Origin: Lachnospiraceae bacterium
Lineage (GTDB): Bacteria > Bacillota > Clostridia > Lachnospirales > Lachnospiraceae
DNA: 64,000 nt
NCBI GenBank assembly: GCA_910575255.1
Contig: CAJTEM010000007.1
Span: forward strand, 62,001 to 126,000
Reading direction: 5' to 3'
Part shown: one piece after another, positions 8,943 to 61,917 of the stretch
Numbering within the stretch: the first letter of the stretch is position 1
How the letters are laid out: each line of letters starts with the position of its first letter
The notes under the pieces: model-generated
Told to the model about the DNA's origin: nothing
Databases searched by the model: none
What the model saw: only the letters and a program-made list of their open reading frames with translations
Translations under genes and position numbers: made by a program

Positions 8943-8972
8943 AAAATATCCTTTCCTGACCGTATGCGTCCT

Positions 8973-11900
8973 TTAGCGCGGAACCTCGACCATGATATAG
9001 GCCTCAATGACATCGTCCTCCTGAATATCATTAAATTTCTCAAATACCAGTCCGCACTCGTAACCGGTCGCAACTTCTTTTACCGCATCCTTAAACCGCT
9101 GCAGGGAAGCCAGAGGACCATCGAATATCTGATCCTTGCCGCGAGTGATCCGGCAGGAACAGCCCCGCTGGAACTTTCCGTCGGTCACATAGGATCCGGC
9201 AATGGTTCCCACCCCGGAAGCCTTGAACAGCTGACGCACTACGGCATGGCCGATCACCTGCTCCTCGAAAACCGGATCCAGCATGCCCTTCATGGCAGCC
9301 TCCACATCCTCGATCGCCTGATAGATCACCCGATACAACCGCAGATCCACCTTTTCCCGCTCCGCAATCGACTTTGCCGTCACATCCGGCCTTACGTTAA
9401 ACCCTATGATAATGGCGTTCGAAGCGGATGCCAGTGTCACGTCAGACTCGTTGATCGCTCCTACACCGCCATGGATCACCTTGACCATCACTTCTTCGTT
9501 GGAAAGCTTCAGCAGGCTCTCCTTCACAGCCTCCACGGATCCCTGCACGTCTGCTTTCACAATGATTGGCAGTTCCTTTACATTACCGGCCTTAATCTGA
9601 CTGAACAGATCATCCAGAGACAGGCGGGACTTGGTGTCCTCAAGCAGCTTGTTCTTGCTCTCGGCAATGAAGGTCTCTGCATAGCTTCTGGCTTCTTTCT
9701 CGTTCTCTGTCGCCATCAGCACGTCTCCGGCCCCCGGCACATCATTTAATCCTAAAATCTCCACCGGCTGAGAAGGACCAGCCTCCTTTACCCTGCGTCC
9801 CTTGTCGTCCATCATAGCCCGCACCTTGCCATAGCAGGCTCCTGCTGTCACGCTGTCTCCGACCCGCAGGGTTCCCTTCTGCACCAGGATGGTTGCCACC
9901 GGGCCTTTTCCTTTGTCCAGCTCCGCCTCAATGACCAGGCCTCTGGCCTTCCGGTTGGGATTCGCCTTCAGTTCCTTCACCTCTGCTGCCAGCAAAATCA
10001 TCTCCAGAAGCTCCGGAATGCCCTCCTTCGTATGGGCAGATACCGGCACAAAGATGGTGCTGCCGCCCCAGTCCTCGGGAACCAGCTCATACTCGGACAA
10101 TTCCTGCTTCACCCGGTCAATATTGGCGCTGGGTTTATCGATCTTGTTAATTGCCACAATGATCTCTACCTCTGCGGCCTTGGCATGGTTGATCGCTTCT
10201 ACGGTCTGCGGCATCACACCGTCATCTGCAGCTACTACCAGAATCGCAATATCCGTAGACTGTGCGCCTCGCATACGCATGGCAGTAAATGCCTCATGTC
10301 CCGGAGTATCCAGAAACGTGATCTGCTGTTCATTGATCTCTACGGTATAAGCACCGATATGCTGGGTAATGCCGCCGGCCTCACGGGAGGTCACATTGGT
10401 CGAACGGATCGCATCCAAAAGCGAGGTCTTACCGTGATCTACGTGGCCCATGACACAGACAACCGGAGATCTCTGCACCATATCTGCCTCGTCCTCTGCA
10501 TCCTCCTTTAAAAGCTCGGCAATGACATCGATCTTCTCCTCCTTCTCACAGAGGACCTCGTATTCCATGGCGATCTCTTCTGCCTTCTCAAAATCAATCT
10601 CCGAATTCACTGTCACTACCTGCCCCTGCAAAAACAGCTTCTTGATGATCACGGAAGGCTGCATCTTCATCTTATCCGCCAGCTCCTTGATGGTAAGCAC
10701 CTCCGGCAGGGTGATAACCTTTACCACTTCCTCCGCCTGCTTCTGGGCTGTCTTCTGAGGCATGGAAAGATTATGCCTGGAAACCTTTCCTCCCTTACTT
10801 CTCGGGCCGTCTTCATTCACATTCTTTTTATCATAACGGTCGTTCTTATAGTTATTATTGTTATTCTTCCGATTACTGGTCGGCTTTGCCTGAATCGGTG
10901 TGTCAAAGCTCTTGGAACCGGAATCTCTCTGGCCGGGACGTGCTGCTCCCGGACGATTCCCGCCAAAGCCCTGGCCTCTCTGGCCGTCACGGCTCTGTCC
11001 TCCTGGCCCGCGGTTCCCGTCACGATTGCCGCCAAAACCGCCGCTGCGGTTCCCATCACGGCCTGCTCCTGGTCCGCGGTTTCCATCACGGCCGCCTCCG
11101 TAGCTGCCGCGGTTCCCGTCACGGTTCTGTCCTCCAAAGCCCGATCCACGGCTTCCGTCACGGCCCTGTCCTCCCGGTCCGCGATTTCCGTCACGATTGC
11201 CTCCAAAACCACCGCTGCGGTTCCCGTCACGGCCCGCTCCCGGTCCGCGGTTTCCGTCACGGCCGCCTCCGTAGCCTCCGCGATTCCCGTCACGGCTTCC
11301 CTCCCGGTTTCCGCCGTAGCCTCCGCGGTTCCCTTCCCGGCCGCCTCCGTAGCTGCCACGGTTTCCATCACGGCCGCCTTCCCGGCCACTCCCCTGAGGT
11401 CTGCCGACGTCACGGAAGGACTGGCTCTGGGATCTGGTGCCATTCTGAGAGTCCGCCGTCTGTCCCTGAGGTCTTGATGAGGTTCCCGGATTCTGAGTAG
11501 TCTGAGACTTCGCGGTTCCGGATGATTGCCCCTGGCTCTGAGACGGATCCGGAGTCTGAACGGCCTGAGGTTTTGCAGTTGCGGACGACTGAGCGGAATT
11601 CGGATTCAAAGCAGCCTGGGGCTTCACGGTTCCGGAGACAATTGTCTGAGTCTGTGCCGGCTGGGATCCCGCAGTCCCCGGAACGCTCTGCGTCTTGCCA
11701 GACATTGTGCCTGTCAGCGGCTGCTGCCGCGCTGCCACATTCTGGCTTTGAGACGTATGGGGCTTCGCCACTCCGGCTGTCAGCCCCTGTCCCTGCGGCC
11801 TTGCTGCTCCGGACGTCGTGCCACCCTGGCCGGCCTGCGGCTTTGCAGTTCCTGTTGTACCCGGTGTTCTGCCCGAAGCCGCACCACGTCCCTGCTGCTG

Positions 11901-12353
11901 TGTCTTGGGACGTGCCGGTCTCTGCTGGGAATTCTGCGGACGATATACGGCCGCGATCTTCTTCTTAGGCGCTCCGGCCGCGGCTGCCTGTGTTCCCGCA
12001 GCCGCCTGTTTCGCTGAAGCTGCCGCACCTGCACCAGCGCCTGCCACAGGCCTTGGCTCCGCCGAAGAACCACCTGCCGCCGCAGGCTTCGCCTCTGCAG
12101 AACCGCCTGCCGCCGCCTTCATCTCTGCCGGAGAGCCGCCCGCCGCAGGCTTCGCCTCCATCCCGCTCTTGCCTCCCGATACCGACTTTGTCTCCGCATT
12201 TGCTGCCGGCTTTGCAGCCCGCCTTACCATCTGAATCTGGTCTTCGTTGATGTTGGAAGAATGTGATTTCACATCCTGATTCTGCTTTTGCAATATTTCC
12301 AAAACCTCCTTGCTGGTTTTTCCTAACTCCTTTGCAAGCTCATTCACTCTCAT
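8973..12353 (-). CDS. infB: Translation initiation factor IF-2 with a very long Arg/Gly-rich insert
   Basis: A 1126-residue GTPase that places fMet-tRNA on the 30S subunit. It has an N-terminal IF2_N domain ([20 protein letters not shown]), a long Ala/Pro/Gln-rich stretch, an Arg/Gly/Asn-rich block at about residues 300-475 built from RDGNRG and GGNRDGNRG units, a second IF2_N domain, and a G domain from about 630 with [16 protein letters not shown] and NKID. The beta-barrel and IF2 C-terminal domains follow. The start is the ATG at 12353, with GGAGG 8 nt upstream; a GTG two codons earlier is too close to that site. The start overlaps ylxQ by 14 bp. The disordered N-region is unusually long for the family. 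Confidence 0.96.
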
Positions 12354-12675
12354 ACTCACTACCTCCGATTGTATTCATTTGTTTTACGATTGCCCTGGCA
12401 AAGCCCTCGTCCACGACCGCTAAGGATGCCCTCAGCTCCTTGCCCATCGCGTGTCCCAGCTCGCCCTTTCCGCCGAAATAACAGATAGGAACCTTATAAT
12501 AAGTACACATATTCATAAACATTTTTTTAGTGTTATCAGATGCTTCCTCCGAAACCACCACCAGGTGCGCTTTTCCTGTCTTTATCGCTTTCTCTGTTGA
12601 AAACTCTCCGCTGGCAGTCTTCCCCGCCTTTGTGGCCAGCCCAATCAGGTTCAAAGCTTTCTGTCTGTTATCCAA
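12340..12675 (-). CDS. L7Ae/L30e-like ribosomal protein YlxQ
   Basis: A 111-residue L7Ae-fold RNA-binding protein. The frame opens well upstream, inside ylxR. The TTG at 12675 is preferred: it lies 10 nt after AGGAG and is followed directly by [18 protein letters not shown], the conserved YlxQ N-terminus. [16 protein letters not shown] is also typical. The start overlaps the ylxR stop by 8 bp and the stop overlaps infB by 14 bp, so the three genes are probably translationally coupled. The precise function is unknown; related proteins bind kink-turn RNA. Confidence 0.85.
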
Positions 12676-12937
12676 GATGCTCCATCTCCTTTTCCAGAGT
12701 CTCATAGACCTCTTGGGGGATCGCCATCTTGAAAGACCTTTCCAGCCCCTTTCCTCTGGCCGCTTTCCGGAAACACTCCATGGATCGGCACAGATAAGCT
12801 CCACGTCCGTTCTTTCTGCCGGTAGCATCCAGTGTAAATTCCCCTTCCGGAGTCTTCAATACCCGAATCATCTCTTTCTTGCTCTTCATCTCACCACAGC
12901 CGATACACTGCCTCTGCGGAATCTTCTTTGTACTCAC
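12668..12937 (-). CDS. YlxR (DUF448) RNA-binding protein
   Basis: An 89-residue protein of the YlxR/DUF448 family. The CIGCGEMKSKKEMIRV motif near the N-terminus and GRGAYLC near residue 45 are diagnostic. YlxR family members are small nucleic-acid-binding proteins encoded between nusA and infB in Firmicutes; a role in regulation and in RNase P binding has been reported. The gene lies 31 bp after nusA and overlaps ylxQ. Confidence 0.92.
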   Translation of the reverse strand: MSTKKIPQRQCIGCGEMKSKKEMIRVLKTPEGEFTLDATGRKNGRGAYLCRSMECFRKAARGKGLERSFKMAIPQEVYETLEKEMEHLG

Positions 12938-12968
12938 CAGTTCCTCACTCCCTATCTGTCATACGCCG

Positions 12969-14207
12969 TTATTCATTTTCCTGCTCTTCGTAATCCTCTA
13001 CGGGGTAGTTCTCATCCGGAGACTCTTCCAAAATCTCATCCGGCAGTCCGGCATCCGCGGACTCCTCGCTCATCGGCTCTTCCTCCAATGACCCAAGTCC
13101 GAAGTCCGCTGGAAAATCATCATATACGCCTTCCTCCTGGTCATCAATACCCATCTGTTCAAACAGCCCCATCTCTCTTGCCTGGGTCTCACTCTTAATA
13201 TCAATCTTATAGCCGGTCAGCCGTGCTGCCAGCCGGGCATTTTGCCCCTCTTTGCCGATGGCCAGCGACAGCTGGTAATCCGGCACGATCACCTGTGCTT
13301 CCCTCATCTCCTCATCTGCCACCACGCAGATCACCTTAGCCGGGCTCAGCGCATTCTCAATCAGAAACGCCGCATTTTCATCCCAGGTGATGATATCGAT
13401 CTTCTCTCCCCGCAGCTCATTCACGATCGAATTGACACGGGCGCCGTTCATTCCCACACAGGCTCCCACCGGATCCACATTGGGATCATTCGAGCACACG
13501 GCAATCTTGGTCCGGGAGCCGGCCTCACGGGCGATCGCCTTAATCTCCACCGTACCGTCCCTCACCTCTGCCACCTCTGCCTCAAACAGCCGCTTCACCA
13601 GATCCGGATGAGTTCGGGAAACGGAAATCCGCGGTCCCTTGGGCGTATCCTTCACCTCCAGAACGAATACCTTGATCCGTTCCGTGGGTTTAAACACTTC
13701 GCCCCTGACCTGCTCCGCCTCACTTAAAACAGCATCCACCCGTCCTAAATTGATGCTTACATTTCTCCCCAGATTTCTCTGTACAATGCCGGTCACCACA
13801 TCCTTTTCCTTCTGGTACCACTCATTGAACTGCATGCTCCGCTCTTCCTCGCGAATCTTCTGCAGGATCACATTCTTTGCATTCTGGGTGGCAATCCGTC
13901 CAAACGACTTAGACTCGATCGGAAAATGAACCACATCCCCCAGCTCATACTTGGGATCCTTCATTCTCGCTTCCGCAAGGCTCACCTGCAAGACCGGATC
14001 CTCTACCTCTTCCACTACCTCTTTATCCGCAAATACGGCAAAATCCCCGGTCTGCGGATTAATATTTACCCTAACATTATCTGCCTTGCCGAAGTGGTTT
14101 TTGCAGGCGGTAATCAGAGAATTCTCAATCGCTTCCAGCAGAGTCGCTTTGCTGATATTCTTCTCCTTCTCCAGCAGCTCCAGCGCCTCAATCAGTTCCT
14201 TGTTCAT
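12969..14207 (-). CDS. nusA: Transcription termination/antitermination factor NusA
   Basis: A 412-residue RNA polymerase-binding factor. The N-terminal polymerase-binding domain covers about residues 1-125, followed by an S1 domain (KDVVTGIVQRNLGRNVSINL) and two KH domains. KH1 shows DPVGACVGMNGARVNSIVNE and KH2 shows AIGKEGQNARLAARLTGY. A 65-residue acidic tail replaces the acidic repeats of proteobacterial NusA. The start ATG has AGGAGG 9 nt upstream. Second gene of the operon, 40 bp after rimP. Confidence 0.97.
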   Translation of the reverse strand: MNKELIEALELLEKEKNISKATLLEAIENSLITACKNHFGKADNVRVNINPQTGDFAVFADKEVVEEVEDPVLQVSLAEARMKDPKYELGDVVHFPIESKSFGRIATQNAKNVILQKIREEERSMQFNEWYQKEKDVVTGIVQRNLGRNVSINLGRVDAVLSEAEQVRGEVFKPTERIKVFVLEVKDTPKGPRISVSRTHPDLVKRLFEAEVAEVRDGTVEIKAIAREAGSRTKIAVCSNDPNVDPVGACVGMNGARVNSIVNELRGEKIDIITWDENAAFLIENALSPAKVICVVADEEMREAQVIVPDYQLSLAIGKEGQNARLAARLTGYKIDIKSETQAREMGLFEQMGIDDQEEGVYDDFPADFGLGSLEEEPMSEESADAGLPDEILEESPDENYPVEDYEEQENE

Positions 14208-14247
14208 GATATTTTCCTCCTAATGATACTTCCTCTTCTTTCCTTTT

Positions 14248-14715
14248 CTAAAAGTCGAATGCCAGCCGGATCAATGCGATCTCCGAGCGGGTAAATACCT
14301 CTTCCCGGCCATCCTCTGTCTCAATCGTTACCGTCCCTTTGTCATATGCCTTTAAAACCCCGGCAAATTCCTTCTGCTTCTCCCGCGGCTTATAAAGCCG
14401 GATCTCTACCTCTTCTCCCAGACTTCTCTCAAAATCCTTATCCTTCTTCAGCGGTCTGCCAAGCCCCGGTGAGCTGACCTCCAGCGTGTAGCTGTCATCA
14501 ATGAAATCCTCCTGATCCAGCCAGTCGCTCAGTGCTCTGCTGATCACCTCACAGTCATCCACAGTAATGCCGCCTTCCTTATCTATATAGGCCCGCAGAT
14601 ACCAGTTCCCCGCTTCCTTCACATACTCGACATCCACCAGCTCAAACTGGTGCTTCTTAAGAAGCGGCAGCAAAAAATGTTCTGTTCGGGACTCGTACTC
14701 CTCTCTTCTTGCCAT
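14248..14715 (-). CDS. rimP: Ribosome maturation factor RimP
   Basis: A 155-residue 30S maturation factor and first gene of the translation operon. The motifs ELVDVEYVKEAGNWYLRAYI, GGITVDDCE, YTLEVSSPGLGRPLK and a C-terminal SH3-like barrel are typical. The start ATG at 14715 follows AGGTGAGGTGACAGG. It is preceded by the leader hairpin at 14789-14810 and the promoter at 14842-14870. Confidence 0.96.
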   Translation of the reverse strand: MARREEYESRTEHFLLPLLKKHQFELVDVEYVKEAGNWYLRAYIDKEGGITVDDCEVISRALSDWLDQEDFIDDSYTLEVSSPGLGRPLKKDKDFERSLGEEVEIRLYKPREKQKEFAGVLKAYDKGTVTIETEDGREEVFTRSEIALIRLAFDF

Positions 14716-14779
14716 CCTGTCACCTCACCTTTCCCTGCTGACCACAGTCCGGCACCGCCTCACCGCAGTCTCCTCACAC

Positions 14780-14812
14780 CAAAAAGTAAGAGTGGACGTC
14801 TGCCCACTCTGT
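14780..14812 (-). promoter_or_regulatory. rimP leader hairpin, attenuator-like
   Basis: On the minus strand AGAGTGG, an 8-base loop (GCAGACGT) and CCACTCT form a stem (14789-14810) followed three bases later by TTTTT. It lies in the leader between the operon promoter and rimP, so it looks like a terminator that must be read through. A conserved hairpin before rimP is known in Firmicutes (rimP leader). Confidence 0.65.
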
Positions 14813-14841
14813 TGTTTGTCGTCTATCATGTTATCATATGT

Positions 14842-14870
14842 ATTATAGCACCAGGAAATGCCAAATGCAA
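14842..14870 (-). promoter_or_regulatory. Promoter of the rimP-nusA-infB-ribF operon
   Basis: TTGCAT (14865-14870) and TATAAT (14842-14847) have a 17-bp spacer on the minus strand. It is the only good promoter seen before the nine-gene operon. Confidence 0.75.
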
Positions 14871-14925
14871 GAGGTTTCTTCTATAAAGTCAGCATAATTT
14901 TTACTTTTTACGGGGGTTTTGAGGG

Positions 14926-14970
14926 GTACGCCTTGGAACCAGGGGAGGGCCGCAGCAGGAAATGGTCCGC
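14926..14970. repeat. Half copy of family 1 module A
   Basis: GTACGCCTTGGAACCAGGGG followed by AGGGCCGCAGCAGGAAA matches the left arm at 470-508. The right arm is absent: the sequence runs straight into the stop codon of the AEC transporter gene. The upstream flank TTACTTTTTACGGGGG also matches other copies. Confidence 0.75.
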
Positions 14971-15900
14971 CTAGATCATCCCCTCCGCCAGGAATATCAC
15001 CGCAGGAATCGTCACCAGTGACAGCAGTGTCGAGATCACAAACAGTTCCGAGGCATAGTTACTGTCTTTATTATACTGCAAGGCAAACATGGTTCCCATA
15101 GCTCCGGAAGGGCAGGCAATCGCTGCCAGGATCGTCATGCGGTAAATGCGCTCTGTCGGGATCCACGACAACAGCAATGCGCTCACAAGCGGCACCAGCA
15201 AAAGCTTCAGAAAGACCACCCGGTATACCCGTGGCTTTCTTAAGGCCACGCGCAGATTGCTCTCCGCCAGATTGCAGCCTGCCACCAGCATTGCCATAGG
15301 GGTGTTCATGCCTGCTATCATGTTCAATGTGTTATGTACCACCTCCGGTACCTGGATCCGCAGCAAAAAGAACAAAATCCCCAGGCTGATCGCGATTGTA
15401 GCCGGCTGAATGAAATTCTTCAGGACTGCCTTTGGCTGTACAGTACCGCACATCAGTGACAGGCCATGAGACCAGATCATCAGGTTGAGCGCCGTGATAT
15501 ATGCCGTAAGGTAGAATACTCCCTCTTCCCCGAAGATCCCTCCGATCAGGGGGATTCCGATAAATCCGCTGTTGGAGTAGATGGATGCGATCCGCTCAAT
15601 TGCCACCGCGCCCTCCCTTCCCTTTTTCATAGGAAGCAGCAAATTGACCAACAGGATAGACCACAGATAGCTGAGCAATGACAGGGCCAGGGTAATCGCC
15701 AGCCCTCGCAGCCTCTCTGGTTGGAACCCGATCTGATAGGACATGAACATCGTTACCGGCGCTATCACATTCAGTGTAAGGCCTGACATCCTTTTATTGG
15801 CAGGACCATCCACGATCCGACACCGGAATGCCGCCATGCCGATCATCATAATCAAAAACATCTCTGTGATCTTCTTTATGGTAATGATTGCCAGCTCCAT
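14971..15900 (-). CDS. AEC-family (auxin efflux carrier-like) transporter
   Basis: A 309-residue membrane protein with about ten hydrophobic segments, arranged as two groups of five. The pattern (MFLIMMIGMAAF at the start, NVIAPVTMFMSYQ in segment 2, GFIGIPLIGGIFG in segment 4, ACPSGAMGTMFALQY near the end) matches the AEC/PF03547 family, which exports organic acids or similar anions. The ATG at 15900 follows GAGGGGAAGAAG; the frame extends to 15924. The gene is monocistronic and its 3' end abuts a half copy of the hairpin repeat. The substrate cannot be deduced. Confidence 0.85.
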   Translation of the reverse strand: MELAIITIKKITEMFLIMMIGMAAFRCRIVDGPANKRMSGLTLNVIAPVTMFMSYQIGFQPERLRGLAITLALSLLSYLWSILLVNLLLPMKKGREGAVAIERIASIYSNSGFIGIPLIGGIFGEEGVFYLTAYITALNLMIWSHGLSLMCGTVQPKAVLKNFIQPATIAISLGILFFLLRIQVPEVVHNTLNMIAGMNTPMAMLVAGCNLAESNLRVALRKPRVYRVVFLKLLLVPLVSALLLSWIPTERIYRMTILAAIACPSGAMGTMFALQYNKDSNYASELFVISTLLSLVTIPAVIFLAEGMI

Positions 15901-16282
15901 CTTCTTCCCCTCTGTATTCCGCACCGGTTTCTCTTCTTTTGCCGGCTTTCGATGAGTCCTGCACAGCTTCTTCCTGTTGCCAGCTTCTTTATCCGGCAGA
16001 CAGGAGCGATTGCAGGTAACCGTTCAATCCTGATCTGAACCGTTACGATTTCAGTCTATCACAATCCATCCTGCCCTGCAATCAGTATTGTGTCGGAAGG
16101 TTTGTCTATTTTTTGTCAATATATTCTCCGTCATTTTTATCGTTTGATAATTTCATCCTTTGCAGAATATAGAGTGTTCTTCATAAAACGGAACCTTTAT
16201 CCTTGTGCATTTTGTCAAGATTGGACAATATTTTCCATAATTGTTAGCATATCTATCAATAGCTTTTTTATAAAAATTTTAT

Positions 16283-16335
16283 TATAATGAATTCGGTTGT
16301 CAACAAATTAACATAGATGCTATTTTATTGACAAC
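16283..16335 (+). promoter_or_regulatory. Control region of the YeiH-family gene
   Basis: A TATAAT (16283-16288) lies in an A+T-rich stretch; I find no good -35 at the usual distance. It is followed by the perfect inverted repeat GTTGTCAA (16296-16303) / TTGACAAC (16328-16335). The segment TTGTCAACAAATTAACAT (16298-16315) resembles a Rex-type redox operator with mismatches. The remainder of 15901-16282 shows no gene. Confidence 0.4.
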
Positions 16336-16363
16336 ACATTATTATTCCATACAGGAGGTTTCT

Positions 16364-17761
16364 ATGAGTAAAAAAGTTTCAACTGTCAGCCCGGCTCCCA
16401 TCAATGATGATGTGGTAGTCGCAGAGAAGTTCCAGCTGTCGGACATGCTGCACAAGGAAGACTGGTTATCCATCTGGGGCGCGTTTATTATCATTGCCAT
16501 TGCTTCCCTTGGTGTCATCAGCGGGGCCTTTGCTTTTAAAGCCGGCACTTTCGGAAAATGGGGCAATGCCGAAAACGGTTCCCTCTTGAAATTCTTCAAC
16601 GGAAGCGAAGCCTGCCTTTCTGCCTGGAGCGGAATCCTGTTAACTCTGGTTGCTCTGATTATCATTTTTGCCGTTTCCAATCAACTCATGGGAAAAAACA
16701 TCACCAGATATGCGGTTGCTTTTCTGGCTCTGTTTGCACTGACCTGTGTGGTACGTCTGATTTCTTCGCAGGTTACCTTTAGCAAATATTTGGAATACGC
16801 TTTCTGGGCCTTGATTCTCGGACTCGTCATTTCCAACTTACTGAAGGTTCCGGACTGGCTGAAACCGGCCATTCAGACAGAATTCTACATAAAGACCGGA
16901 CTGGTTCTCATGGGAGCTTCGGTGCTGTTCTCCAATATCCAGAAATTCGGCCTTTACGGTCTGGGCATTGCCTGGGCAGTAACACCGGTTGTTATCATTT
17001 TCATGTGGCTTCTGGGAACCAAATATTTAAAAATGGAAAATAAGAGAATGGTCATGACGATTGCCGCTGCCACCTCGGTCTGCGGAACCTCTGCCGCCAT
17101 TGCCACAGCTGCTGCCTGTAAGGCAAAAAAGACAGATCTGACCTTTGCCGTCGGCATTTCTCTGATCTTTACTGTGCTGATGATGGTTGGCATGCCGCTG
17201 TTCTGTAAGGTAGTTGCTCTGGATCCCATGGTCGGCGGTGCCTGGATCGGCGGTACGGTTGACTCTACCGGAGCCGTGGTTCTGGCCGGAAATGCCCTGG
17301 GCGAGCTTGCCGGACAGGTAGCCGCTCTGGTCAAGATGATCCAGAACATCCTGATCGGTTTTGTAGCCTTTGCCGTAGCAGTATTCTTCACCACCAAGGT
17401 AGATAAGACAGAGAATCAGACCGTAGGCGCTTCTGAGATCTGGCATAGATTCCCCAAGTTCATCCTGGGCTTTTTAGGCGCCTCCCTTTTCTTCTCCTTT
17501 GTATTCCAGAATACCATCGGCGTGGAAGCTACTGCCAAAATTCTGTCGGATATCAAGGAATTCCAGACCTGGTGCTTTGCTCTTGCCTTCACCTGCATCG
17601 GCCTGGAGACCAACTTCAAAGAGATGGCAGAGCAGTTCCAGGGCGGCAAGCCCTTCGTCCTCTATATCGTAGGACAGGTATTCAACCTGGTACTGACTTT
17701 TGTCGTGGCATGGCTTCTGCTGTCCGGAAGAATCTTCCCGATTCCGAACATCACAGTCTGA
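16364..17761 (+). CDS. YeiH family putative sulfate exporter
   Basis: A 465-residue integral membrane protein of the YeiH family (PF03601). It has about eleven hydrophobic segments after a 35-residue soluble N-terminus. The conserved core includes FYIKTGLVLMGASVLF, AATSVCGTSAAIATAAA and WIGGTVDSTGAVVLAG. Members are annotated as sulfate or sulfonate-linked anion exporters, mostly without biochemical proof. The ATG at 16364 has a perfect AGGAGG 7 nt upstream; the frame extends to 16328. A small membrane protein gene follows 21 bp downstream and shares the terminator at 18151-18190. No LysR gene is adjacent, unlike many yeiH loci. Confidence 0.85.
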   Translation: MSKKVSTVSPAPINDDVVVAEKFQLSDMLHKEDWLSIWGAFIIIAIASLGVISGAFAFKAGTFGKWGNAENGSLLKFFNGSEACLSAWSGILLTLVALIIIFAVSNQLMGKNITRYAVAFLALFALTCVVRLISSQVTFSKYLEYAFWALILGLVISNLLKVPDWLKPAIQTEFYIKTGLVLMGASVLFSNIQKFGLYGLGIAWAVTPVVIIFMWLLGTKYLKMENKRMVMTIAAATSVCGTSAAIATAAACKAKKTDLTFAVGISLIFTVLMMVGMPLFCKVVALDPMVGGAWIGGTVDSTGAVVLAGNALGELAGQVAALVKMIQNILIGFVAFAVAVFFTTKVDKTENQTVGASEIWHRFPKFILGFLGASLFFSFVFQNTIGVEATAKILSDIKEFQTWCFALAFTCIGLETNFKEMAEQFQGGKPFVLYIVGQVFNLVLTFVVAWLLLSGRIFPIPNITV

Positions 17762-53722: not shown

Positions 53723-55726
53723 TTACTCCCCAGCCATCATCATCATAATCTCATTGCTCCGGGCAATAAACTTCGTCATCCGCTCCGGGTTCAGGGTGCC
53801 ATGGCTTAACAGGGCCAGATCATACAGCTGCTCACAGAACTTGGGCGTGTTCTCCCCGTCTTTATGGTTTAACACATACTGCACCAGCTTGTGGTTGGCA
53901 TTGAGTACCAGTGTCTCGCCGGCGCCGCCGAACATGGAGGGATCCATGCCGTACATATTGTACATCTTCATCATATCCTGCATCCGGCGGCTCTCCTCGG
54001 CCACAGTCAGCATGGAGGAGATATTCTCGTTCTTCAGCTTCTCCACCTTGACCTCCAGCTTGTCATTGCCCAAAGCCTTCTTAAAGATCTCCGTCAGGGT
54101 TTCCGCCGTCTTTTTAAACTCCTCGTCATCCTCCTTCACCTCTTCCTTGAAGGTGTCGTTGAGATCCGCATCAATCCGGAGGAATTTGAGACCCTCGTTC
54201 TTCTGCTCCAAGTGATTGATGAAGGGACTGTCAATATTGTGGGGAAGAATCACCGCATCCAGCCCTTCCTCCTTGAACATATTGATATACTGGCTCTGCT
54301 CCTTCTCGTCCGTCACATAGAACACCTTGTTCTCGTGCTTCTCCTTGTTCTCCTCCAGGCAGTCCTTCAGGGTCAGGTACTTTTTGTCCAAGTTCTTAAA
54401 GAGAATGTAATCATTCATCTTCTCGGCAAATTTCTCATCCTTGATGCAGCCGAACTTGATAAAGGGAGCAATGTCATCCCAGTACTTCTCGTAATTCTCC
54501 CGGTCGGTCTTGCACATGCCGGTCAGCTTGTCCGCCACCTTCTTGGTGATGTAATCGGAGATCTTCTTCACAAAACCATCGTTCTGCAGGGCGCTCCGGG
54601 AAACGTTCAGGGGCAGATCCGGACAGTCGATAGCGCCCTTTAAGAGCATCAAAAACTCCGGAATCACTTCCTTTATATTGTCCGCAATAAATACCTGGGT
54701 GTTGTAAAGCTTGATGGTGCCTTCAATAGAATCATACTCCGTGTTGATCTTGGGGAAGTAGAGAATTCCCTTCAGGTTAAACGGATAATCCATATTCAGG
54801 TGAATCCAGAACAGAGGTTCCTTGTAATCCATAAACACCTTCCGGTAGAAGCTTCTGTACTCCTCCTCCGTGCACTCATTGGGATGCTTGTTCCACAGCG
54901 GGGTGGTGTCATTAAGGGCCACCGGGCGCTTTAAGATCTTGTAGCGCTCCTTGGAGGGCTCGATCTCCACCGTCTCCTTCTCCCCGTTCTCGTTCTCCTT
55001 CTCCTCGGTCTTGGCCGGCTCCACCACGGTCTCCACAATGGTGTCCTTGTCCGTCAACTCTTCCTTGTCAATGGTCTCATACTCCGGCTCTGCCTTGGCA
55101 TTGCTTAAATAAATCGGAATCGGCATGAAGGAGCAGTACTTATCCAGCACCTCTCTGGCCCGGTATTCATTGGAAAACTCGTAGCTGTCCTCATTCAGAT
55201 ACAGGGTGATAACCGTGCCCTGGTCCTCCTTGTCCCCGTCCTTCATCTCAAAGGTCAGGCCGCCCTCAGACTCCCAGTGCACCGGCCTGCTGCCTTCCCT
55301 GTAGGAAAGGGAATCGATAGTCACCTTGTCCGCCACCATAAATGCCGAATAAAATCCCAACCCGAAATGCCCGATGATCTGATCCTCATTGGCCTTGTCC
55401 TTATATTTCTCTAAGAAATCCTGAGCGCCGGAAAATGCGATCTGATTGATATACTCTTCCACTTCCTCCGCCGTCATACCCAGACCATTGTCCTGCACCC
55501 GGATGGACTTTTCATCCGAATCCACAGTGATCTGAATCTTGTACTCCATATCCTCCGGCTTGGCGTACTCTCCCATCAGCTCCAGCTTCTTTAACTTGGT
55601 GATGGCATCGCAGCCATTGGACACCAGTTCCCGGTAGAAGATGTCATGGTCCGAATAAAGCCACTTTTTGATAATCGGAAATATGTTCTCACTGTTGATC
55701 GATAAATTGCCTGATTTGCTGCCCAT
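53723..55726 (-). CDS. htpG: Molecular chaperone HtpG (Hsp90)
   Basis: A 667-residue Hsp90 homologue. The N-terminal GHKL ATPase has ELVSNGCDAITKLKKL near residue 35, VQDNGLGMTAEEV near 78 and GHFGLGFYSAFMVA near 118. An acidic linker (TEEKENENGEKET) at about 240-255 and the middle and C-terminal dimerisation domains follow. The length exceeds the E. coli protein by about 40 residues, mainly from the linker. The ATG at 55726 has AGGAGTGATATGCG upstream. The promoter 55923-55951 is paired with a perfect CIRCE element, so HrcA repression is expected. Confidence 0.96.
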   Translation of the reverse strand: MGSKSGNLSINSENIFPIIKKWLYSDHDIFYRELVSNGCDAITKLKKLELMGEYAKPEDMEYKIQITVDSDEKSIRVQDNGLGMTAEEVEEYINQIAFSGAQDFLEKYKDKANEDQIIGHFGLGFYSAFMVADKVTIDSLSYREGSRPVHWESEGGLTFEMKDGDKEDQGTVITLYLNEDSYEFSNEYRAREVLDKYCSFMPIPIYLSNAKAEPEYETIDKEELTDKDTIVETVVEPAKTEEKENENGEKETVEIEPSKERYKILKRPVALNDTTPLWNKHPNECTEEEYRSFYRKVFMDYKEPLFWIHLNMDYPFNLKGILYFPKINTEYDSIEGTIKLYNTQVFIADNIKEVIPEFLMLLKGAIDCPDLPLNVSRSALQNDGFVKKISDYITKKVADKLTGMCKTDRENYEKYWDDIAPFIKFGCIKDEKFAEKMNDYILFKNLDKKYLTLKDCLEENKEKHENKVFYVTDEKEQSQYINMFKEEGLDAVILPHNIDSPFINHLEQKNEGLKFLRIDADLNDTFKEEVKEDDEEFKKTAETLTEIFKKALGNDKLEVKVEKLKNENISSMLTVAEESRRMQDMMKMYNMYGMDPSMFGGAGETLVLNANHKLVQYVLNHKDGENTPKFCEQLYDLALLSHGTLNPERMTKFIARSNEIMMMMAGE

Positions 55727-55922
55727 CGCATATCACTCCTGTTCTTTTATTTTCTTGCTTTTCCGGCATACCACGTTAATCCTGGTTCTCTCTGCACGTT
55801 GCTCTTCTTGCACTTTGTTTTGCTGCTCTTTGTTCTTCCTCCGCCCTCTCAAGGCATCCCCCGCATCCGAAACCAGAACCAGATTCCCTCCGCAATTCCC
55901 TGCCCTGGAATCTCTGGAGTAT

Positions 55923-55985
55923 ATTTTAATACGGAAGCAGCTAATTGTCAACAGAAAATTAGCACTCATTGAAAATGAGTGCTAA
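55923..55985 (-). promoter_or_regulatory. htpG promoter with CIRCE element
   Basis: TTGACA (55946-55951) and TAAAAT (55923-55928) are 17 bp apart. A perfect CIRCE, TTAGCACTC-N9-GAGTGCTAA (55959-55985), lies immediately upstream of the -35 box, the HrcA operator found at heat-shock genes of Firmicutes. Confidence 0.95.
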
Positions 55986-56388
55986 CAACACTGATTATGC
56001 AAAGTATTATCACAGCATAGAACAGGAACGAAAAACCGCATATTCCCAGAATACATAAGCATCGGATAATCCGGTTTTTCCGAATAAAGCCTAGATAATT
56101 CAGCACTCCGATCCCTGTCCAGAAAAGCAAATGTTTTATATCACACAGAATAAACTTCCAGGTATTCCAGTCCTTATAGGTTTCATAGTTGGGGTCGCTG
56201 ATGTCATCATACGAAATTAAAATATTCTCATGAATCAAAGCGGTAAAAAAACAGAAGCCGGCAATGCAGGCAAACAGCCATGTGTATTTTACCGTATTCT
56301 TCCATGCGGAATAAACAATTGCTGCAGGTATGCTCAGGAAAACTCCGGCAAGGCCAAGCAGACAGGTAATCTCTCCATATTTTTCCAT
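55966..56388 (-). CDS. Small unknown membrane protein ending inside CIRCE
   Basis: A 140-residue hydrophobic protein with four membrane segments (about 8-27, 35-50, 82-100 and 110-135). The family is not recognised. Its last codons (VSTHFQ and stop) are read from the CIRCE operator of htpG, so the C-terminus may be a rearrangement product. Upstream it is preceded by the duplicated htpG leader and its CIRCE promoter, so it may now be heat-shock regulated. AAGGAG is 14 nt before the ATG, a weak spacing. Confidence 0.6.
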   Translation of the reverse strand: MEKYGEITCLLGLAGVFLSIPAAIVYSAWKNTVKYTWLFACIAGFCFFTALIHENILISYDDISDPNYETYKDWNTWKFILCDIKHLLFWTGIGVLNYLGFIRKNRIIRCLCILGICGFSFLFYAVIILCIISVVSTHFQ

Positions 56389-56402
56389 AACGTGTCTGTC
56401 TC

Positions 56403-56450
56403 ACTCCTTGATATATGCAATCCCCTTTTCCTTCAAAAACTGCCCCATCC
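56403..56450. repeat. 48-bp copy of the DUF5721 gene 3' end
   Basis: This segment is identical to 61422-61469, the last codons of the DUF5721 gene (GQFLKEKGIAYIKE), except for the stop codon context. It is fused on its right to the start of a duplicated htpG leader. Confidence 0.9.
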
Positions 56451-56654
56451 CTGCCCATCGCATATCACTGTTCTTTTGTTTTCTTACTTTCTCGGCATAC
56501 CACGTCAGAACGTGTCTAAAAATTGCAGTTCGTGGGACACTGTAGGTACCCCTTGCGGGGATTTGGCTCAAATATACCGCTCTCAAAAAAGATCTTCTCC
56601 ATATTCTGAACCAGATTCCATCCGCAATTTCTTTCCCTGGAATCTCTGCAGTAT
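56451..56654 (-). repeat. Duplicated htpG leader with start codon
   Basis: The stretch repeats much of 55727-55922: CATATCACT, TGTTCTTTT, CGGCATACCACGT, ACCAGATTCC and CCTGGAATCTCTG in the same order, including the htpG ATGGGCAG start, after which the sequence switches to the DUF5721 end. The middle (about 56515-56600) is unrelated in the two copies; here it includes GTGTCTAAAAATTGCAG. Confidence 0.8.
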
Positions 56655-56715
56655 ATTTTAATACGGAAGCAGTTAATTGTCAACAAAATAAGCACTCGTT
56701 TTTATCGAGTGCTAA
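56655..56715 (-). promoter_or_regulatory. Second CIRCE-controlled promoter
   Basis: TTGACA (56678-56683) and TAAAAT (56655-56660) are 17 bp apart. TAAGCACTC-N9-GAGTGCTAA (56689-56715) is a CIRCE with one mismatch. The whole unit duplicates the htpG control region and now faces the 140-residue membrane protein gene. Confidence 0.9.
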
Positions 56716-56759
56716 TAGCCATTCTTTTGCCTCTTTTCAACGTCGCGTCTGTAATAGCA

Positions 56760-57824
56760 TTAATCAATAGCATAAATACCTAACAGTTCCTCAATATGAT
56801 TACCTTTAACCTTGATTCTTAAATTCATCCAATATTGTTTATGTGCATAAAAATCATCCAGCCACTCGGTAGCATTTTTTCCATTTACAGGAAAGCCATA
56901 ATCGCTTTCACTTTCAATAATTATTTTTGTTGTATCATCTACATAGAAATCCCCTTCTGTTAAATCATAAAATCCCTGTGTCCAATCCCCTCCTGCCGGA
57001 ATCCGAAATTCATCATATCCCTCAATAACCCCAGAATAATGATAGACACCGTTTTCCTTGACCAAATGACCACAAGAACCTTCATATATAGGTTCACTAT
57101 CATTTAGCACATGATTTGCCAGCCAAAGCTCCGTCTTTCCATCCCCTTCGGCTAAAACACCACCCGATGTATAAGCCTTGACCTTTTTCTCAAACAGGTC
57201 ATAGTCCTTTTCACCACGCACTGTATCATAAATAATATGAACCGAATATTCTTCAATGACGTTTTTCGTATAATCCGGTTTAAAATCATATAAAATGTAT
57301 GTCAAGTCTCCTTCCCCTTGATAAATGCCATTTGTTTTCTTCAACAAACAGGCTTTTCCATTCCTGATACACAAATGGAGTTCGCTGCGAAAATTTTGAT
57401 AAATTTCCCTTGATATTTCCTTTACCTGATTTTGAGAAATGGCATATATTCCGATATAGGTAGCATTATCAGAACCTTCTCTCCATCGCACCACCATTTC
57501 CTCATGCCCATTATTGCTCAGATCCACTAAAGCAATCTGCACATTTCTTCCCGCAAAATTCTGATTGATAAAACGCATATAAACTGCTTCGTCTGCTATT
57601 TCGTTTTGCTCGTTGCCTGTTTTAATCCAGTATCCATTCTTGTCAAACTGGTATAGTTTTCCCTCGATGAATTGAGATCTGCTGCAAGGGTAAGAACCAT
57701 CTCCATTTTGGTACCACCAGTATCCGCCATCTTGAACCCAGCCAGCTCCATAAGTATTCACAGCAGAAGCAGTAACAAATATCCCTGTCATCAATGTCAG
57801 ATAAAATCTTTTAAATTTTTTCAT
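56760..57824 (-). CDS. Secreted protein with an N-terminal cell-wall-binding motif
   Basis: A 354-residue exported protein. After the signal (FYLTLMTGIFVTASAVNTYG) one or two cell-wall-binding-type units are seen (WVQDGGYWWYQNGDGS, KLYQFDKNGYWI). The remaining 280 residues form a soluble domain with LVDLSNNGHEEMVVRW (a calcium-loop-like strand), LTYILYDFKPDYT and YGFPVNGKNATEWLDDFY. I do not recognise the domain. The ATG at 57824 follows GGAG. It is the last gene of an A+T-rich three-gene island and probably a surface protein. Confidence 0.75.
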   Translation of the reverse strand: MKKFKRFYLTLMTGIFVTASAVNTYGAGWVQDGGYWWYQNGDGSYPCSRSQFIEGKLYQFDKNGYWIKTGNEQNEIADEAVYMRFINQNFAGRNVQIALVDLSNNGHEEMVVRWREGSDNATYIGIYAISQNQVKEISREIYQNFRSELHLCIRNGKACLLKKTNGIYQGEGDLTYILYDFKPDYTKNVIEEYSVHIIYDTVRGEKDYDLFEKKVKAYTSGGVLAEGDGKTELWLANHVLNDSEPIYEGSCGHLVKENGVYHYSGVIEGYDEFRIPAGGDWTQGFYDLTEGDFYVDDTTKIIIESESDYGFPVNGKNATEWLDDFYAHKQYWMNLRIKVKGNHIEELLGIYAID

Positions 57825-57939
57825 TTCATTCTCCAATCTTGATTTTCTCCGTAATCCGCTAAAAACCCTGACTATCCGTATAATTAGTAACAATGCCAAT
57901 CTGGCCCGCTGTTAAACGCACATTTCTGATACCTCCCTT

Positions 57940-59247
57940 CTATTTTTGCATATTTATTTTCCTGACCATAAACAGTGCCAGGTTTTTTCCCTTATTAATG
58001 AGCAGCCCATACATGGTTTCCACCACTGTCACCACTAAATTATCTATCAAAAAGGCTATCCCAAAAGAAACCAGCAAAGTCACAATCAGAGATAACAATA
58101 TTCCGCCTATATAAAAATATTGGCTCACATCAATCCGAAAGACGGCTCTGGTAACAAAAAAGAGAACATACCAATGAATCAAAATAATTGAAAAACTGTA
58201 CCGACTCAATATTCGGAGAAACACATTTCCTTTAGAAAAAAAGCGGGGAATAGAAAAGACCAATGAAAATAAGCTCATAGCTATCATCAACATGGTAGGA
58301 GAACAGTTACAGCAAATATTGAGGAATTCCTCTCGGCTATAAGTATGTATACAATACATAGTAATGAAAATACTTACTCCTCCCATTGCCATAATCGGAC
58401 CATCATAGGATCTCGTTTCTTTTTGAGCAATCCAATAACCAGCAATTGCCACCCCGATCCAAGAAGACAGCAACGGGGTTACTGCACAAGGAATCGGACT
58501 ATAAGTAGTAAAATACATGCAAATTCCGCTAACAGCTACCATAGCTGTCAATGTTTTATATGGTATATTTCTGCACATATAGCGAAAAAATGGAATTACG
58601 ACATACAGTCCTAAGATCACATACATTAACCAATAGTGCGGTGACTCCGATGTATCCCCCATAAAAAATCGTCTTAGAACCCAACCTACAGTATAAAAAT
58701 TGATATGTTCCAACTCCCCATTAATCCACAAATAGAAAATAAAATATACCAGCATGGGGCTTACTATTTTCTCCATGCGATAAAGATAAAAATCCCATAG
58801 TTTATTCTCTTTATAAGGCAGTAGCAATGCTCCGCTCAGCATCACATAAAGCAAATTGCAAACCAGGCAAAACACATACAAAACCGTCATCCAATAAAAT
58901 ACCCTTCCTTCTGGCACCATTCCGCTATCCATATCCATTTGTATTGCATGTGTCGTAATTACCATAACTACTGCCATAAGCCGAAGCCAATCATATTCGT
59001 ATATCCTTTTCCTTCCAATCCCGGATTCCTTTCCAGACTCATTCTCTATTCCCAAAATTTTCTGAATATATTTTGGTGTTCTCTTGAGTCTTCGAATATG
59101 AATACTTACTGCCAATACCACCACTATACTCATAACCAACATTTTTTTTGGTCCTAAGCCCATCCTCTGCATCCACATTAACAGAAAAAAACCCAAAAAC
59201 CCCCAAAACAGGCAATCTATCAACTTCCTTTTTTTAATCCACATCAT
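57940..59247 (-). CDS. Acyltransferase 3 family membrane protein
   Basis: A 435-residue integral membrane acyltransferase (Acyl_transf_3 family). The family motif EYDWLRLMAVVMVITTHA lies near residue 85, with the catalytic His in TTHA. About ten hydrophobic segments follow, and YSFSIILIHWYVLFF is typical of the last third. These enzymes O-acetylate or O-acylate cell-wall or exopolysaccharide sugars. The ATG at 59247 was chosen for AAGG upstream; the frame opens at 59289. Second gene of the island. Confidence 0.85.
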   Translation of the reverse strand: MMWIKKRKLIDCLFWGFLGFFLLMWMQRMGLGPKKMLVMSIVVVLAVSIHIRRLKRTPKYIQKILGIENESGKESGIGRKRIYEYDWLRLMAVVMVITTHAIQMDMDSGMVPEGRVFYWMTVLYVFCLVCNLLYVMLSGALLLPYKENKLWDFYLYRMEKIVSPMLVYFIFYLWINGELEHINFYTVGWVLRRFFMGDTSESPHYWLMYVILGLYVVIPFFRYMCRNIPYKTLTAMVAVSGICMYFTTYSPIPCAVTPLLSSWIGVAIAGYWIAQKETRSYDGPIMAMGGVSIFITMYCIHTYSREEFLNICCNCSPTMLMIAMSLFSLVFSIPRFFSKGNVFLRILSRYSFSIILIHWYVLFFVTRAVFRIDVSQYFYIGGILLSLIVTLLVSFGIAFLIDNLVVTVVETMYGLLINKGKNLALFMVRKINMQK

Positions 59248-59326
59248 ATTACCAACCTTTTTCTCTATTGAGAACACGCTATTCCTCATTACTTATTATG
59301 AAAGTTCAGCATTGAAAAACCGGCGA

Positions 59327-60934
59327 TTATTGCGATAATTTTACTACAATCAGATCATCCAACTTAAAAACAGAACCTGCTTTCGGCCATATCGGTTTGT
59401 TTTTTCCTGCTTCCATAGCCTTTTCATAATCAGAAGCAGAAACCCTTCCTATGGGAATCCCTAAAGTTTGAAAGTACTCACAAACCCGAGCAGAAACACC
59501 TACTTCGCTAGTTGCATCCCACTGGAATACAGAATGCCCAATTACATCTCCGTAAGTAGGATGTCCGGCTAGTTCTACTCCTTTTGAACCGATAAATACT
59601 ACTTTACAATCTGCTAAATTCTCTTGTCTTGCAACATAACAGACCGTACTATAAATTCGGTTAGCCATTAAATTATCCGACACATAAACTTCATGGGCTG
59701 TTTCAAAAAGTTCATTAGTAGCAACCATCTGTTTCCATGCAAGAGAACAAGAAAAAAACACAGTAAACCAATATGCTGCCAAACGCAAGTGACTCCATTT
59801 TGCTAATAACTTAGGCAGTAAGGCACATATCAAAAACAGATATGCCGCAAATACCAGCGCAAATGTCAGATGGGCACGAATCGGCTGAGCCATTCCTGTA
59901 AGAAGTGTAATCATTATTGGTGTGGTAAATAATACAAAAAGGCCAAACAAGCAACATAACAGATTTTTCCTCCGCTTCCTCCACCCACACCAAATAACTA
60001 ACAAGGATGCAATAATAGCTACCCGCACAAAAAAACCAGAAAAAAACAAAGGCAATTCCGCCTGATATACTCTCCTAAAATCCATAGCTACAAAAAACAG
60101 ACAATCTCTCAATGCTTGTGTTTTCCAAGCAAACATAGAATCCACATAGGAAGTGTCACCCTGTACGTGCCACACAAAAAATAAAGCAAGAAACTGAGTA
60201 ATTAAAAATCCTGCCAGAAACAGAAGAACATTTAAAATTCCCTCACGCCAACCAATATTCACCTCTCCTGCCTGATACGAAATAAGATACGCTAATACCG
60301 TAAGTGCAATATAGAAAGCTGGAAAGGCCTGGTAAGTTCCCATGGACCAAACCATAAGTACTAATGCTGGCAAATACCAAATTGGTGATTGTCCTTTCCT
60401 AATTCCCATTTGGGCACAGTACATACCCATCACACTAAATATCATAGCCAAAGCAATTTCAAAAGCTTGAAGCACAAAATAGAACTGTTCTGCCAAACAG
60501 GGTGCTGATAAAAATAATGCTGAAAACGGAATCATTCCCCTATGGAAATATTTGTCATTCCCACTCAAACGCCAAAAGCAGAAGCCTGTCAACAGGATAA
60601 ACAGCCACAAAGCAATCATCATAAGCAAATTGGCCAAAGTAGGCGTAAGCCGCAAAAATGAAAACACTTTTTTTATCAAAACCATCCCAAAACGGTGACT
60701 TCCATACATAACAACTAAATATCCCTGAGGATCTATCAGCATATTATCGCTATCTATAAAAATATCCTCATGAAACAAGCGAATCCCATATAAAAGAAGT
60801 ATCCACACTGCCGTAAACCAACGCAGCAATTTGGTGGAATAAACATAGGTTCGGAATTCTTCAATTTCCCTATGAATCTCTGCTAAAAATAGAAACCATC
60901 TTTTTGCAATCTCATTTTTCCACATGTATTCCAT
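59327..60934 (-). CDS. GtrII-like membrane glucosyltransferase
   Basis: A 535-residue membrane protein with about eleven hydrophobic segments, similar to the Glucos_trans_II (GtrII) family that adds glucose to surface polysaccharide from a lipid carrier. The motifs IDSDNMLIDPQGYLVVMYGSH (shown in two parts here: IDSDNML and GYLVVMYGSH), WSMGTYQAFPAFYIAL and TTPIMITLLTGMAQPIRAHL are in the positions expected for the family. The soluble C-terminal domain of about 140 residues holds VVFIGSKG. The second Met (60925) has better spacing from AAAGG. First gene of the island. Confidence 0.75.
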   Translation of the reverse strand: MEYMWKNEIAKRWFLFLAEIHREIEEFRTYVYSTKLLRWFTAVWILLLYGIRLFHEDIFIDSDNMLIDPQGYLVVMYGSHRFGMVLIKKVFSFLRLTPTLANLLMMIALWLFILLTGFCFWRLSGNDKYFHRGMIPFSALFLSAPCLAEQFYFVLQAFEIALAMIFSVMGMYCAQMGIRKGQSPIWYLPALVLMVWSMGTYQAFPAFYIALTVLAYLISYQAGEVNIGWREGILNVLLFLAGFLITQFLALFFVWHVQGDTSYVDSMFAWKTQALRDCLFFVAMDFRRVYQAELPLFFSGFFVRVAIIASLLVIWCGWRKRRKNLLCCLFGLFVLFTTPIMITLLTGMAQPIRAHLTFALVFAAYLFLICALLPKLLAKWSHLRLAAYWFTVFFSCSLAWKQMVATNELFETAHEVYVSDNLMANRIYSTVCYVARQENLADCKVVFIGSKGVELAGHPTYGDVIGHSVFQWDATSEVGVSARVCEYFQTLGIPIGRVSASDYEKAMEAGKNKPIWPKAGSVFKLDDLIVVKLSQ

Positions 60935-61419
60935 ACCTTTTCAATGTAATGAAATATTCAAACATTTACCAAACGCCTCAGTCCATATAAAACCGTACCT
61001 TTTTCTTTGAAAAGCAATAAGAATTAATATCATGTTCATAATATAAATTATTAAAAGTAAATATAGGAAAATTGCCCGGATCCAGACAGAATGTATTGAG
61101 AAAAACAGATTTCTTTTTCAAAAAAATCTAAATAACACTTGCATCTTGAAACTGTATGGTGTATTATCATAGCGAAAACAAAAAATCCAAAAATTGTATG
61201 TTTTTCACTTGGTATAATTTATATTATAAGAAGTATAATATTTTTTCGTGAAATGACATTCATTTTTTAATATCAGACAATTAGTATTGTTCTTTATTTT
61301 CTATTCTTTTCCCTTTTTAATTAGCAGTTGCTATTTGAAACATTGTGTACCTGTGTATAGATATATAGATGAAGGACTTTCCGAAAAGTTCGGAAAGCCC
61401 AACGCAACATAAATGTTTT
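60935..61419. other. A+T-rich intergenic region with no supported gene
   Basis: This stretch of about 485 bp is markedly A+T-rich, with several TATAAT-like strings (for example near 61215 and 61250) but no convincing reading frame. A small hairpin CTTTCCGAA/TTCGGAAAG (61377-61397) lies downstream of the DUF5721 gene; no T-run follows it. Confidence 0.6.
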
Positions 61420-61917
61420 TTACTCCTTGATATATGCAATCCCCTTTTCCTTCAAAAACTGCCCCATCCATGCATCCCATCCCTGCTCGATCCGCTTATC
61501 CATGGTAAATACCTTCAGGGAAATACCGGTCACGCAGCGCAGGATCTGTTCCTCATAACGGATATTCAGATACAAGCCCCCCACCTGCTCTGCCCCGAAC
61601 TCCGGCTGCACAGACTGAAGGAAACTCTCTACCCCTTCTGCCGGAAGCTGCAGGGTAATCCGAAAACTCTCCGGCAAACGTTTTCCCCGAATCAGAGAAT
61701 AGCAGAAAGGCCGGATCAGCTTCCAGGGCGATAATTCTTTGATGTGGTTCTCCTCTGTCTCCTGCTCGGTAAAATATCCGCTCCGTATTCTTCCATCGAT
61801 GGAAAAGGTATTAAACGTAATGATTGATGCCTCCCGCACAAGCCATCGATCAAATCCCTCCCCCACAAACAAGGAGGAAGTAAAGCCTTTTAAATCCTCA
61901 ATTTTAAGCGCTGTCAT
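61420..61917 (-). CDS. DUF5721 family protein
   Basis: A 165-residue cytosolic protein. MTALKIEDLKGFTSSLFVGE at the start, FTEQETEENHIKELSPWKLI near 55 and the C-terminal WMGQFLKEKGIAYIKE match the DUF5721 family found in Lachnospiraceae. The function is unknown. The ATG at 61917 has GGAGGAG upstream; the frame opens at 62007. Its last 48 bp occur again at 56403-56450. It follows the foldase gene by about 110 bp and may be cotranscribed. Confidence 0.8.
   Translation of the reverse strand: MTALKIEDLKGFTSSLFVGEGFDRWLVREASIITFNTFSIDGRIRSGYFTEQETEENHIKELSPWKLIRPFCYSLIRGKRLPESFRITLQLPAEGVESFLQSVQPEFGAEQVGGLYLNIRYEEQILRCVTGISLKVFTMDKRIEQGWDAWMGQFLKEKGIAYIKE
61422..61469. repeat. 48-bp repeat, original copy within the DUF5721 gene
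   Basis: The 3' end of the DUF5721 gene is identical to 56403-56450. The two copies bound a block of about 5 kb that holds the glycan island and the second CIRCE promoter. Confidence 0.9.

Follow-up and report, generated by a model that had tools for sequence, protein, structure and literature searches.

Two cargoes stacked upstream of htpG in a Lachnospiraceae genome: probable joining of two alleles and a predicted invertible promoter

How did a unit made up of the end of a DUF5721 gene, a cargo, a CIRCE operator (controlling inverted repeat of chaperone expression) and the htpG leader come to be present twice, with different cargoes, in front of htpG in a Lachnospiraceae bacterium? The locus lies in a 64,000-nucleotide stretch, here called the window, of a 5.1-Mb draft genome in 106 contigs (label G000; other contigs of this genome are named C5, C9, C12 and C17); coordinates are those of the whole window, with features on its minus strand unless stated. 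Working along that strand, we see the DUF5721 gene, then genes for a GtrII-type glucosyltransferase, an acyltransferase and a secreted-type protein, followed by a CIRCE copy, a leader copy, a copy of the DUF5721 tail, a 140-amino-acid (aa) gene, htpG's own CIRCE and htpG itself (Table 1). Our explanation, which we hold to be reasonably likely as a whole, is that alleles from two lineages have been stacked here, and that the glycan operon in the first of them stands under an invertible promoter, assembled in its OFF state.

That the unit occurs twice, as the initial annotation of this DNA had proposed, is borne out for the sequence as assembled. The 48-bp copy of the DUF5721 gene end is exact and follows directly upon the copied htpG start, ATGGGCAG; self-BLAST on the minus strand recovers 52 bp at 98% identity (the DUF5721 end), 110 bp at 86% (CIRCE, promoter and early leader) and 58 bp at 88% (the leader end), and 401 bp of the inner unit, compared with the whole of its own genome, match in three places, namely the unit itself, the htpG leader and the DUF5721 end. 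At both sites a CIRCE inverted repeat precedes the promoter, the arrangement of CIRCE/HrcA-type control. The same annotation described the leaders as diverged; this is so for a middle section of ~100 bp, barely alignable with a score ~1.8 standard deviations above shuffles, and not for the two ends, which align with 95 matches, 13 mismatches and 2 gap bases from CIRCE to GGTTC, and with 51 matches, 4 mismatches and 3 gap bases at the leader end. The GGA of the ribosome-binding site, kept in 23 of 24 aligned leaders, is absent from the copy, which is therefore probably no longer a working htpG start. Its CIRCE promoter, directly upstream of the 140-aa gene, probably drives that gene. The orphan start codon opens a 76-aa frame (56228–56458), out of frame with the 140-aa gene that it overlaps, an overlap that may have selected for loss of the ribosome-binding site.

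Both DUF5721 and htpG are found in each of 24 genus genomes, the source genome included, and share a contig in 17 of the 23 others (they are split in G002, G010, G012, G014, G019 and G021). The gap between them measures 117–236 bp in 11 of these relatives and 520–16353 bp in six; all 17 have exactly one CIRCE, and in none was a DUF5721-tail repeat found in the interval. Since the 140-aa gene is the sole occupant of this slot in G004 and G018 (the G003 homologue being located elsewhere), that is likely the resident state. In a set of 80 named htpG loci, 40 are preceded by DUF5721 in the same orientation, and in 14 of these the two genes stand more than 500 bp apart; inspection of these 14 gave one CIRCE each, no tail repeat and varied genes, with L118 and L134 lacking a frame of at least 80 codons. 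The slot is thus variable: in relatives it may be empty of genes, contain just the 140-aa gene, or carry unrelated cargo, among which are the sugar-transport operon of G003, the ATPase of G022 and, in other Lachnospiraceae, thymidine-kinase-like and peptidase-like genes, all named by eye rather than by family search. Alternative cargoes, foreseen by the initial annotation, do therefore exist among relatives; the stack is seen in the source genome only.

The two copied flanks have not diverged to the same degree. Between copies, the DUF5721 tail differs at 1 of 52 bases and the leader at 17 of 163, giving a binomial P of 0.02 for the tail at the leader rate if rates were equal, and a Fisher P of 0.0004 once the poorly aligned middle is included. 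A slowly evolving tail is no explanation, since G004 and the source genome are 72% identical over the DUF5721 end and 76% over the leader; the greater divergence of the leader copy therefore speaks for two joined lineages rather than for duplication in place. Judged by sequence, the leader copy probably derives from another, close lineage: it has blocks in common with the resident leader that other members of the genus lack or share in part. The proposal that two alleles were joined, already made in the initial annotation, fits this unequal divergence, and we infer a two-lineage origin for the stack. Two things tell against it: the comparison of tail with leader is small (Fisher P 0.08 on alignable bases alone), and searches for a donor with the island in an unstacked slot were negative, both among the genus genomes and in 397 genomes sampled from the larger family, the set used for all family searches below.

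Under the mechanism that we envisage, a donor segment from a related lineage, running from the invertible promoter through GtrII, acyltransferase, secreted protein and CIRCE to the htpG leader, would have been joined into the resident chromosome at the DUF5721 end. At one junction the DUF5721 tail would have been kept or used; at the other, the donor htpG start would have been fused, with no long homology, to the DUF5721 tail of the resident, the outcome being both cargoes stacked in tandem. Homology-facilitated illegitimate recombination (PMC3240628) pairs a homologous with an illegitimate end and would yield such a stack.

Tandem duplication in situ of the unit, with the first cargo later exchanged and the redundant leader left to decay, would give the same unit structure and accommodates both the lost ribosome-binding site and the finding that the leader copy is nearest, among the 24 aligned, to the resident leader with its lineage-specific blocks; redundant tail and leader should then have diverged alike, yet the counts above and the poorly aligned middle say otherwise, and a separate cargo replacement would also be required, so that we consider this course of events unlikely. 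An assembler might have joined two strain alleles, given a draft in 106 contigs and an exact 48-bp repeat that could confuse short k-mers; the novel junction of htpG start with DUF5721 tail, however, offers no long shared sequence for an assembler to use, the stretch read contains no run of N, and we rate an artefact as very improbable. Least credible is a site-specific integrative element that uses the 48-bp end of DUF5721 for attachment, which we reject: direct repeats at a gene 3′ end do flank a block of ~38% GC (flanks ~50%), but open reading frame, Pfam and phrog scans of this block detected no integrase, 40 bp taken from the tail have no exact match in a viral contig collection, the block terminates in htpG's own regulatory leader, and none of the 17 relatives has such a repeat.

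Returning to the stack, the front of the first cargo holds a feature that the initial annotation does not mention. The DUF5721–GtrII stretch is AT-rich (29% GC at 61000–61499), and an inverted-repeat search returns arms at 61019–61061 and 61204–61246 (43 nt, 72% complementary, 142 nt apart). As in an inverton, these repeats flank an intergenic segment with a promoter inside it, the latter seen as a sequence motif only. A tyrosine recombinase, most likely of Xer type, would flip the ~190-bp segment at two inverted sites of ~28 bp; by arithmetic, the flipped element would place its promoter ~160 bp before GtrII.

The element has seven sisters, of which the source genome has four and relatives have three; all stand in front of large proteins that probably belong to the cell surface. 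A search with 311 bp of the element against the 24 genus genomes finds further places on C17, C9 and C5 and one in G004, each upstream of a reading frame of at least 1137 codons; aligned, the elements are conserved at their ends. The large protein on C5 scores above the cut-off for an LPXTG anchor and that on C17 above the one for VWA domains, adhesin and pilus models match below their cut-offs, and the remaining surface-protein calls are by likeness and by eye. A site pattern built from left arms only occurs at 11 places in the 24 genomes; read backwards, it occurs at 0. At seven of these (four in the source genome, the window's included, and one each in G004, G012 and G013) an inverted partner lies 114–174 bp away, with 20–23 of 30 bases matching; the other four have one mismatch each and no partner arm.

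In all seven pairs the six-base centre is identical between the two arms, as expected of an inverton crossover, and five centres occur among the seven (TATAAA, TAAAGA, TATGGA three times, TAAGAA and TAAGGA); with three-base centres permuted, a full match arises in 6 of 5040 orders. A scan for matched pairs over 2.8 Mb, overlaps included, gives 24 overlapping pairs at eight distinct places, which are the seven plus one on C12, and 0 pairs with a reversed centre. At six of the seven loci the best 26-nt inverted repeat lies above all 12 shuffles. Each of the seven has one TTG-N17-TA promoter motif inside, with a similar spacer, that points away from the operon (the operon side in G012 was set by hand) and faces the 3′ end of the gene upstream.

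The C12 element, whose sequence came from the loci of a search for tyrosine recombinases (PF00589), has arms that form a perfect 26-bp inverted repeat and, unlike the other seven, a promoter motif directed towards its operon (predicted ON). That operon, a 182-aa followed by a 2227-aa protein, is laid out as in most of the other elements' operons. A similar promoter in both orientations at sister loci is as expected of invertible promoters and, together with the matched centres, amounts to an inverton signature, so that the glycan island too is probably phase-variable. Just upstream of the C12 element lies the gene for a 421-aa protein that passes the PF00589 cut-off and is matched by the XerA, XerC and XerD models below theirs; it is the one of 45 PF00589 matches in the source genome to stand beside this element, and we regard it as a candidate master invertase. 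More tentatively, this one Xer-type recombinase might flip dif-like promoters genome-wide, such that giant adhesins, pili and the glycan island would make up a stochastic surface regulon; the island would then have arrived as a ready-made phase-variable module, and stacking would have set another heat-shock promoter in front of the 140-aa gene. We hold this possible, with less than even confidence.

Several observations have to be set against an invertible promoter. There is no recombinase gene in the island of the window, and none of the 45 PF00589 matches is on C5, C9 or C17. At the left arm, the strand of the operon also has promoter-like sites, 61252–61223 (10 of 12 bases) and 61259–61232 (9 of 12); such sites number 21 in the scanned region and 19.9 in shuffles, which is no excess. 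The 26-nt repeat on C5 only ties the maximum of its 12 shuffles, the C9 and G004 elements are the same genomic place, so that the seven are not all independent, and across the sister loci seven of the eight promoters share one orientation, away from the operon, with one towards it, each locus being seen in a single state.

Could the repeats around the promoter motif instead be two operator sites, or an RNA stem? The arms are AT-rich, partly palindromic and operator-like, and an RNA helix would also produce matched arms; two operators, however, have no need of a common six-base centre that differs between loci, as the arms have in all seven pairs, and the promoter motif faces the 3′ end of the upstream gene at seven loci but the operon at the eighth. 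An Rfam search at E 1 was without match, and we dismiss an RNA family for the element and think this reading as a whole improbable. The left-arm pattern also occurs at 11 places in viral contigs, none of which has a matched partner, and these matches are therefore taken as chance.

Table 1. Features of the stacked htpG locus (window coordinates) and of sister loci (coordinates within each named locus)
Feature	Position	Strand	Remarks
DUF5721 gene	61420-61917	-	PF18988, E 2.3e-51
Left inverted-repeat arm	61207-61234	-	28 bp, centre TATAAA
Promoter motif inside element	61139-61167	+	TTGCAT-N17-TATTAT; points away from glycan genes, predicted OFF
Right inverted-repeat arm	61031-61058	+	centre TATAAA, same as left arm
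GtrII-type glucosyltransferase	59327-60934	-	first-unit cargo; PF14264, E 1.6e-29
Acyltransferase	57940-59289	-	PF01757, E 5e-24
Secreted-type protein	56760-57824	-	N-terminal part similar to phage endolysin families, phrog_7854, E 1.9e-10
Second (copied) CIRCE operator	56689-56715	-	one mismatch against the consensus used
Copied htpG promoter and leader	56451-56688	-	ends at ATGGGCAG (56451-56458); ribosome-binding site lost
Exact 48-bp repeat of DUF5721 gene end	56403-56450	-	original at 61422-61469
140-aa gene	55966-56388	-	second-unit cargo; membrane-type by eye; same-slot homologues in G004 and G018
htpG's own CIRCE operator	55959-55985	-	CIRCE inverted repeat
htpG (Hsp90)	53723-55726	-	
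Xer-like recombinase gene, predicted invertible promoter, 182-aa protein and 2227-aa protein in a row	L294 (G000:C12:20000-38000), 8706-17559		reverse complement
EP[YF]GxIxH-type protein	L240, 6911-7462		
EP[YF]GxIxH-type protein	L239, 5875-6567		reverse complement
EP[YF]GxIxH-type protein	L241, 6088-6564		reverse complement
EP[YF]GxIxH-type protein	L276, 548-1096		
EP[YF]GxIxH-type protein	L281, 2714-3268		
EP[YF]GxIxH-type protein	L280, 2217-2723		reverse complement

Scored against letters that we take to be those of Bacillus subtilis dif, a string with one occurrence in PMC3025954, the seven left arms agree at 18–21 of 28 bases and the right arms at 14–19, with shuffled regions reaching 19–20; the likeness to dif is therefore modest. 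The XerCD/dif site is described in PMC3025954 as 28 bp in which a canonical 6-bp centre separates two half-sites, and the sites here differ from it in that they form inverted pairs with a promoter motif between them. Invertible promoters close to surface genes are themselves well known, also in Clostridia (PMC11892184, PMC5903667), the former paper linking a Clostridia inverton group to a group of tyrosine-type recombinases. Like the gut-bacterial invertons of PMC11892184, our elements have short inverted repeats that flank a promoter near surface genes, but they are predicted from sequence, with a recombinase gene known beside one of the eight. Clostridioides difficile, according to PMC5903667, likewise has several switches per genome, with short repeats at the segment ends, partly served by one tyrosine recombinase encoded elsewhere; switches including cwpV and the flagellar switch are RecV-dependent, whereas our candidate enzyme is Xer-like, and the repeats there are reported as mutually unrelated except for one pair, whereas the elements here share one site plan. 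Among the best-ranked matches in a limited literature collection, no title concerned this genus.

Where the glycan island came from was sought by cargo. It is probably foreign, or acquired. Against the 397 family genomes, its DNA finds two places outside the source genome: part of the secreted-protein gene in G134, at 71% and among different neighbours, and a stretch the size of a CIRCE in G227; the secreted protein itself is found in G134 alone among the other 396, and had no match in a Pfam search at E 0.01. GtrII occurs in five of the 23 other genus genomes, the best at 52% (G022, upstream of relA/spoT). A phage origin of the cargo was discarded: GtrII matches only proteins of 23% identity in three Enterococcus phage records, of which two represent one phage, and has no relative in viral contigs by a search reaching close relatives only, with plasmid records outside it.

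Is the htpG slot, then, a hotspot for exchanging surface genes, as the initial annotation suggested? Its cargoes are not mainly surface genes, and other boundaries vary widely too. In a control of 16 genome stretches (mechanical gene calls, names by eye), the DUF5721–htpG gap spans 92–16340 bp (15 genomes), the distance from htpG to a downstream DegV-like gene 29–5119 bp (eight genomes) and the HAD–SurA gap −13 to 3833 bp (12 genomes), with the SurA–DUF5721 gap steady at −65 to 153 bp (14 genomes); the genes upstream of relA/spoT are common to three of nine genomes inspected and different in the other six. Transcription-unit boundaries seem to vary in general, and the control intervals downstream of htpG and near relA/spoT do not bear out htpG as a special site.

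Three side observations may be recorded. The cargo families of the window recur near relA/spoT (L177 and L209), with GtrII just upstream of it in G022 and a 140-aa homologue two genes upstream in G003. One slot (L073, in G009) has a 520-bp gap with, by eye, a long inverted repeat, GGGAATCATATCC...GGATATGATTCCC, and no listed cargo gene; the repeat is possibly a mobile palindromic element. At six loci, proteins of 158–230 aa with a motif close to EP[YF]GxIxH stand between the switch and the giant protein (Table 1); the two tested had no Pfam or NCBIfam match at E 0.001.

We take the element in front of GtrII to be a predicted invertible promoter, and the stack to be the probable product of joining two alleles. 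The locus provides a concrete, testable example, in a gut member of the Lachnospiraceae, of a probably acquired glycan-modification operon with its own predicted phase switch. The site signature, pairs of ATAAT-NNNN-ATTAT with matched centres, finds sister switches from sequence and has already led from the window's element to that on C12; and the stacked CIRCE leader illustrates that joining two alleles of a slot can place a resident gene behind a new promoter.

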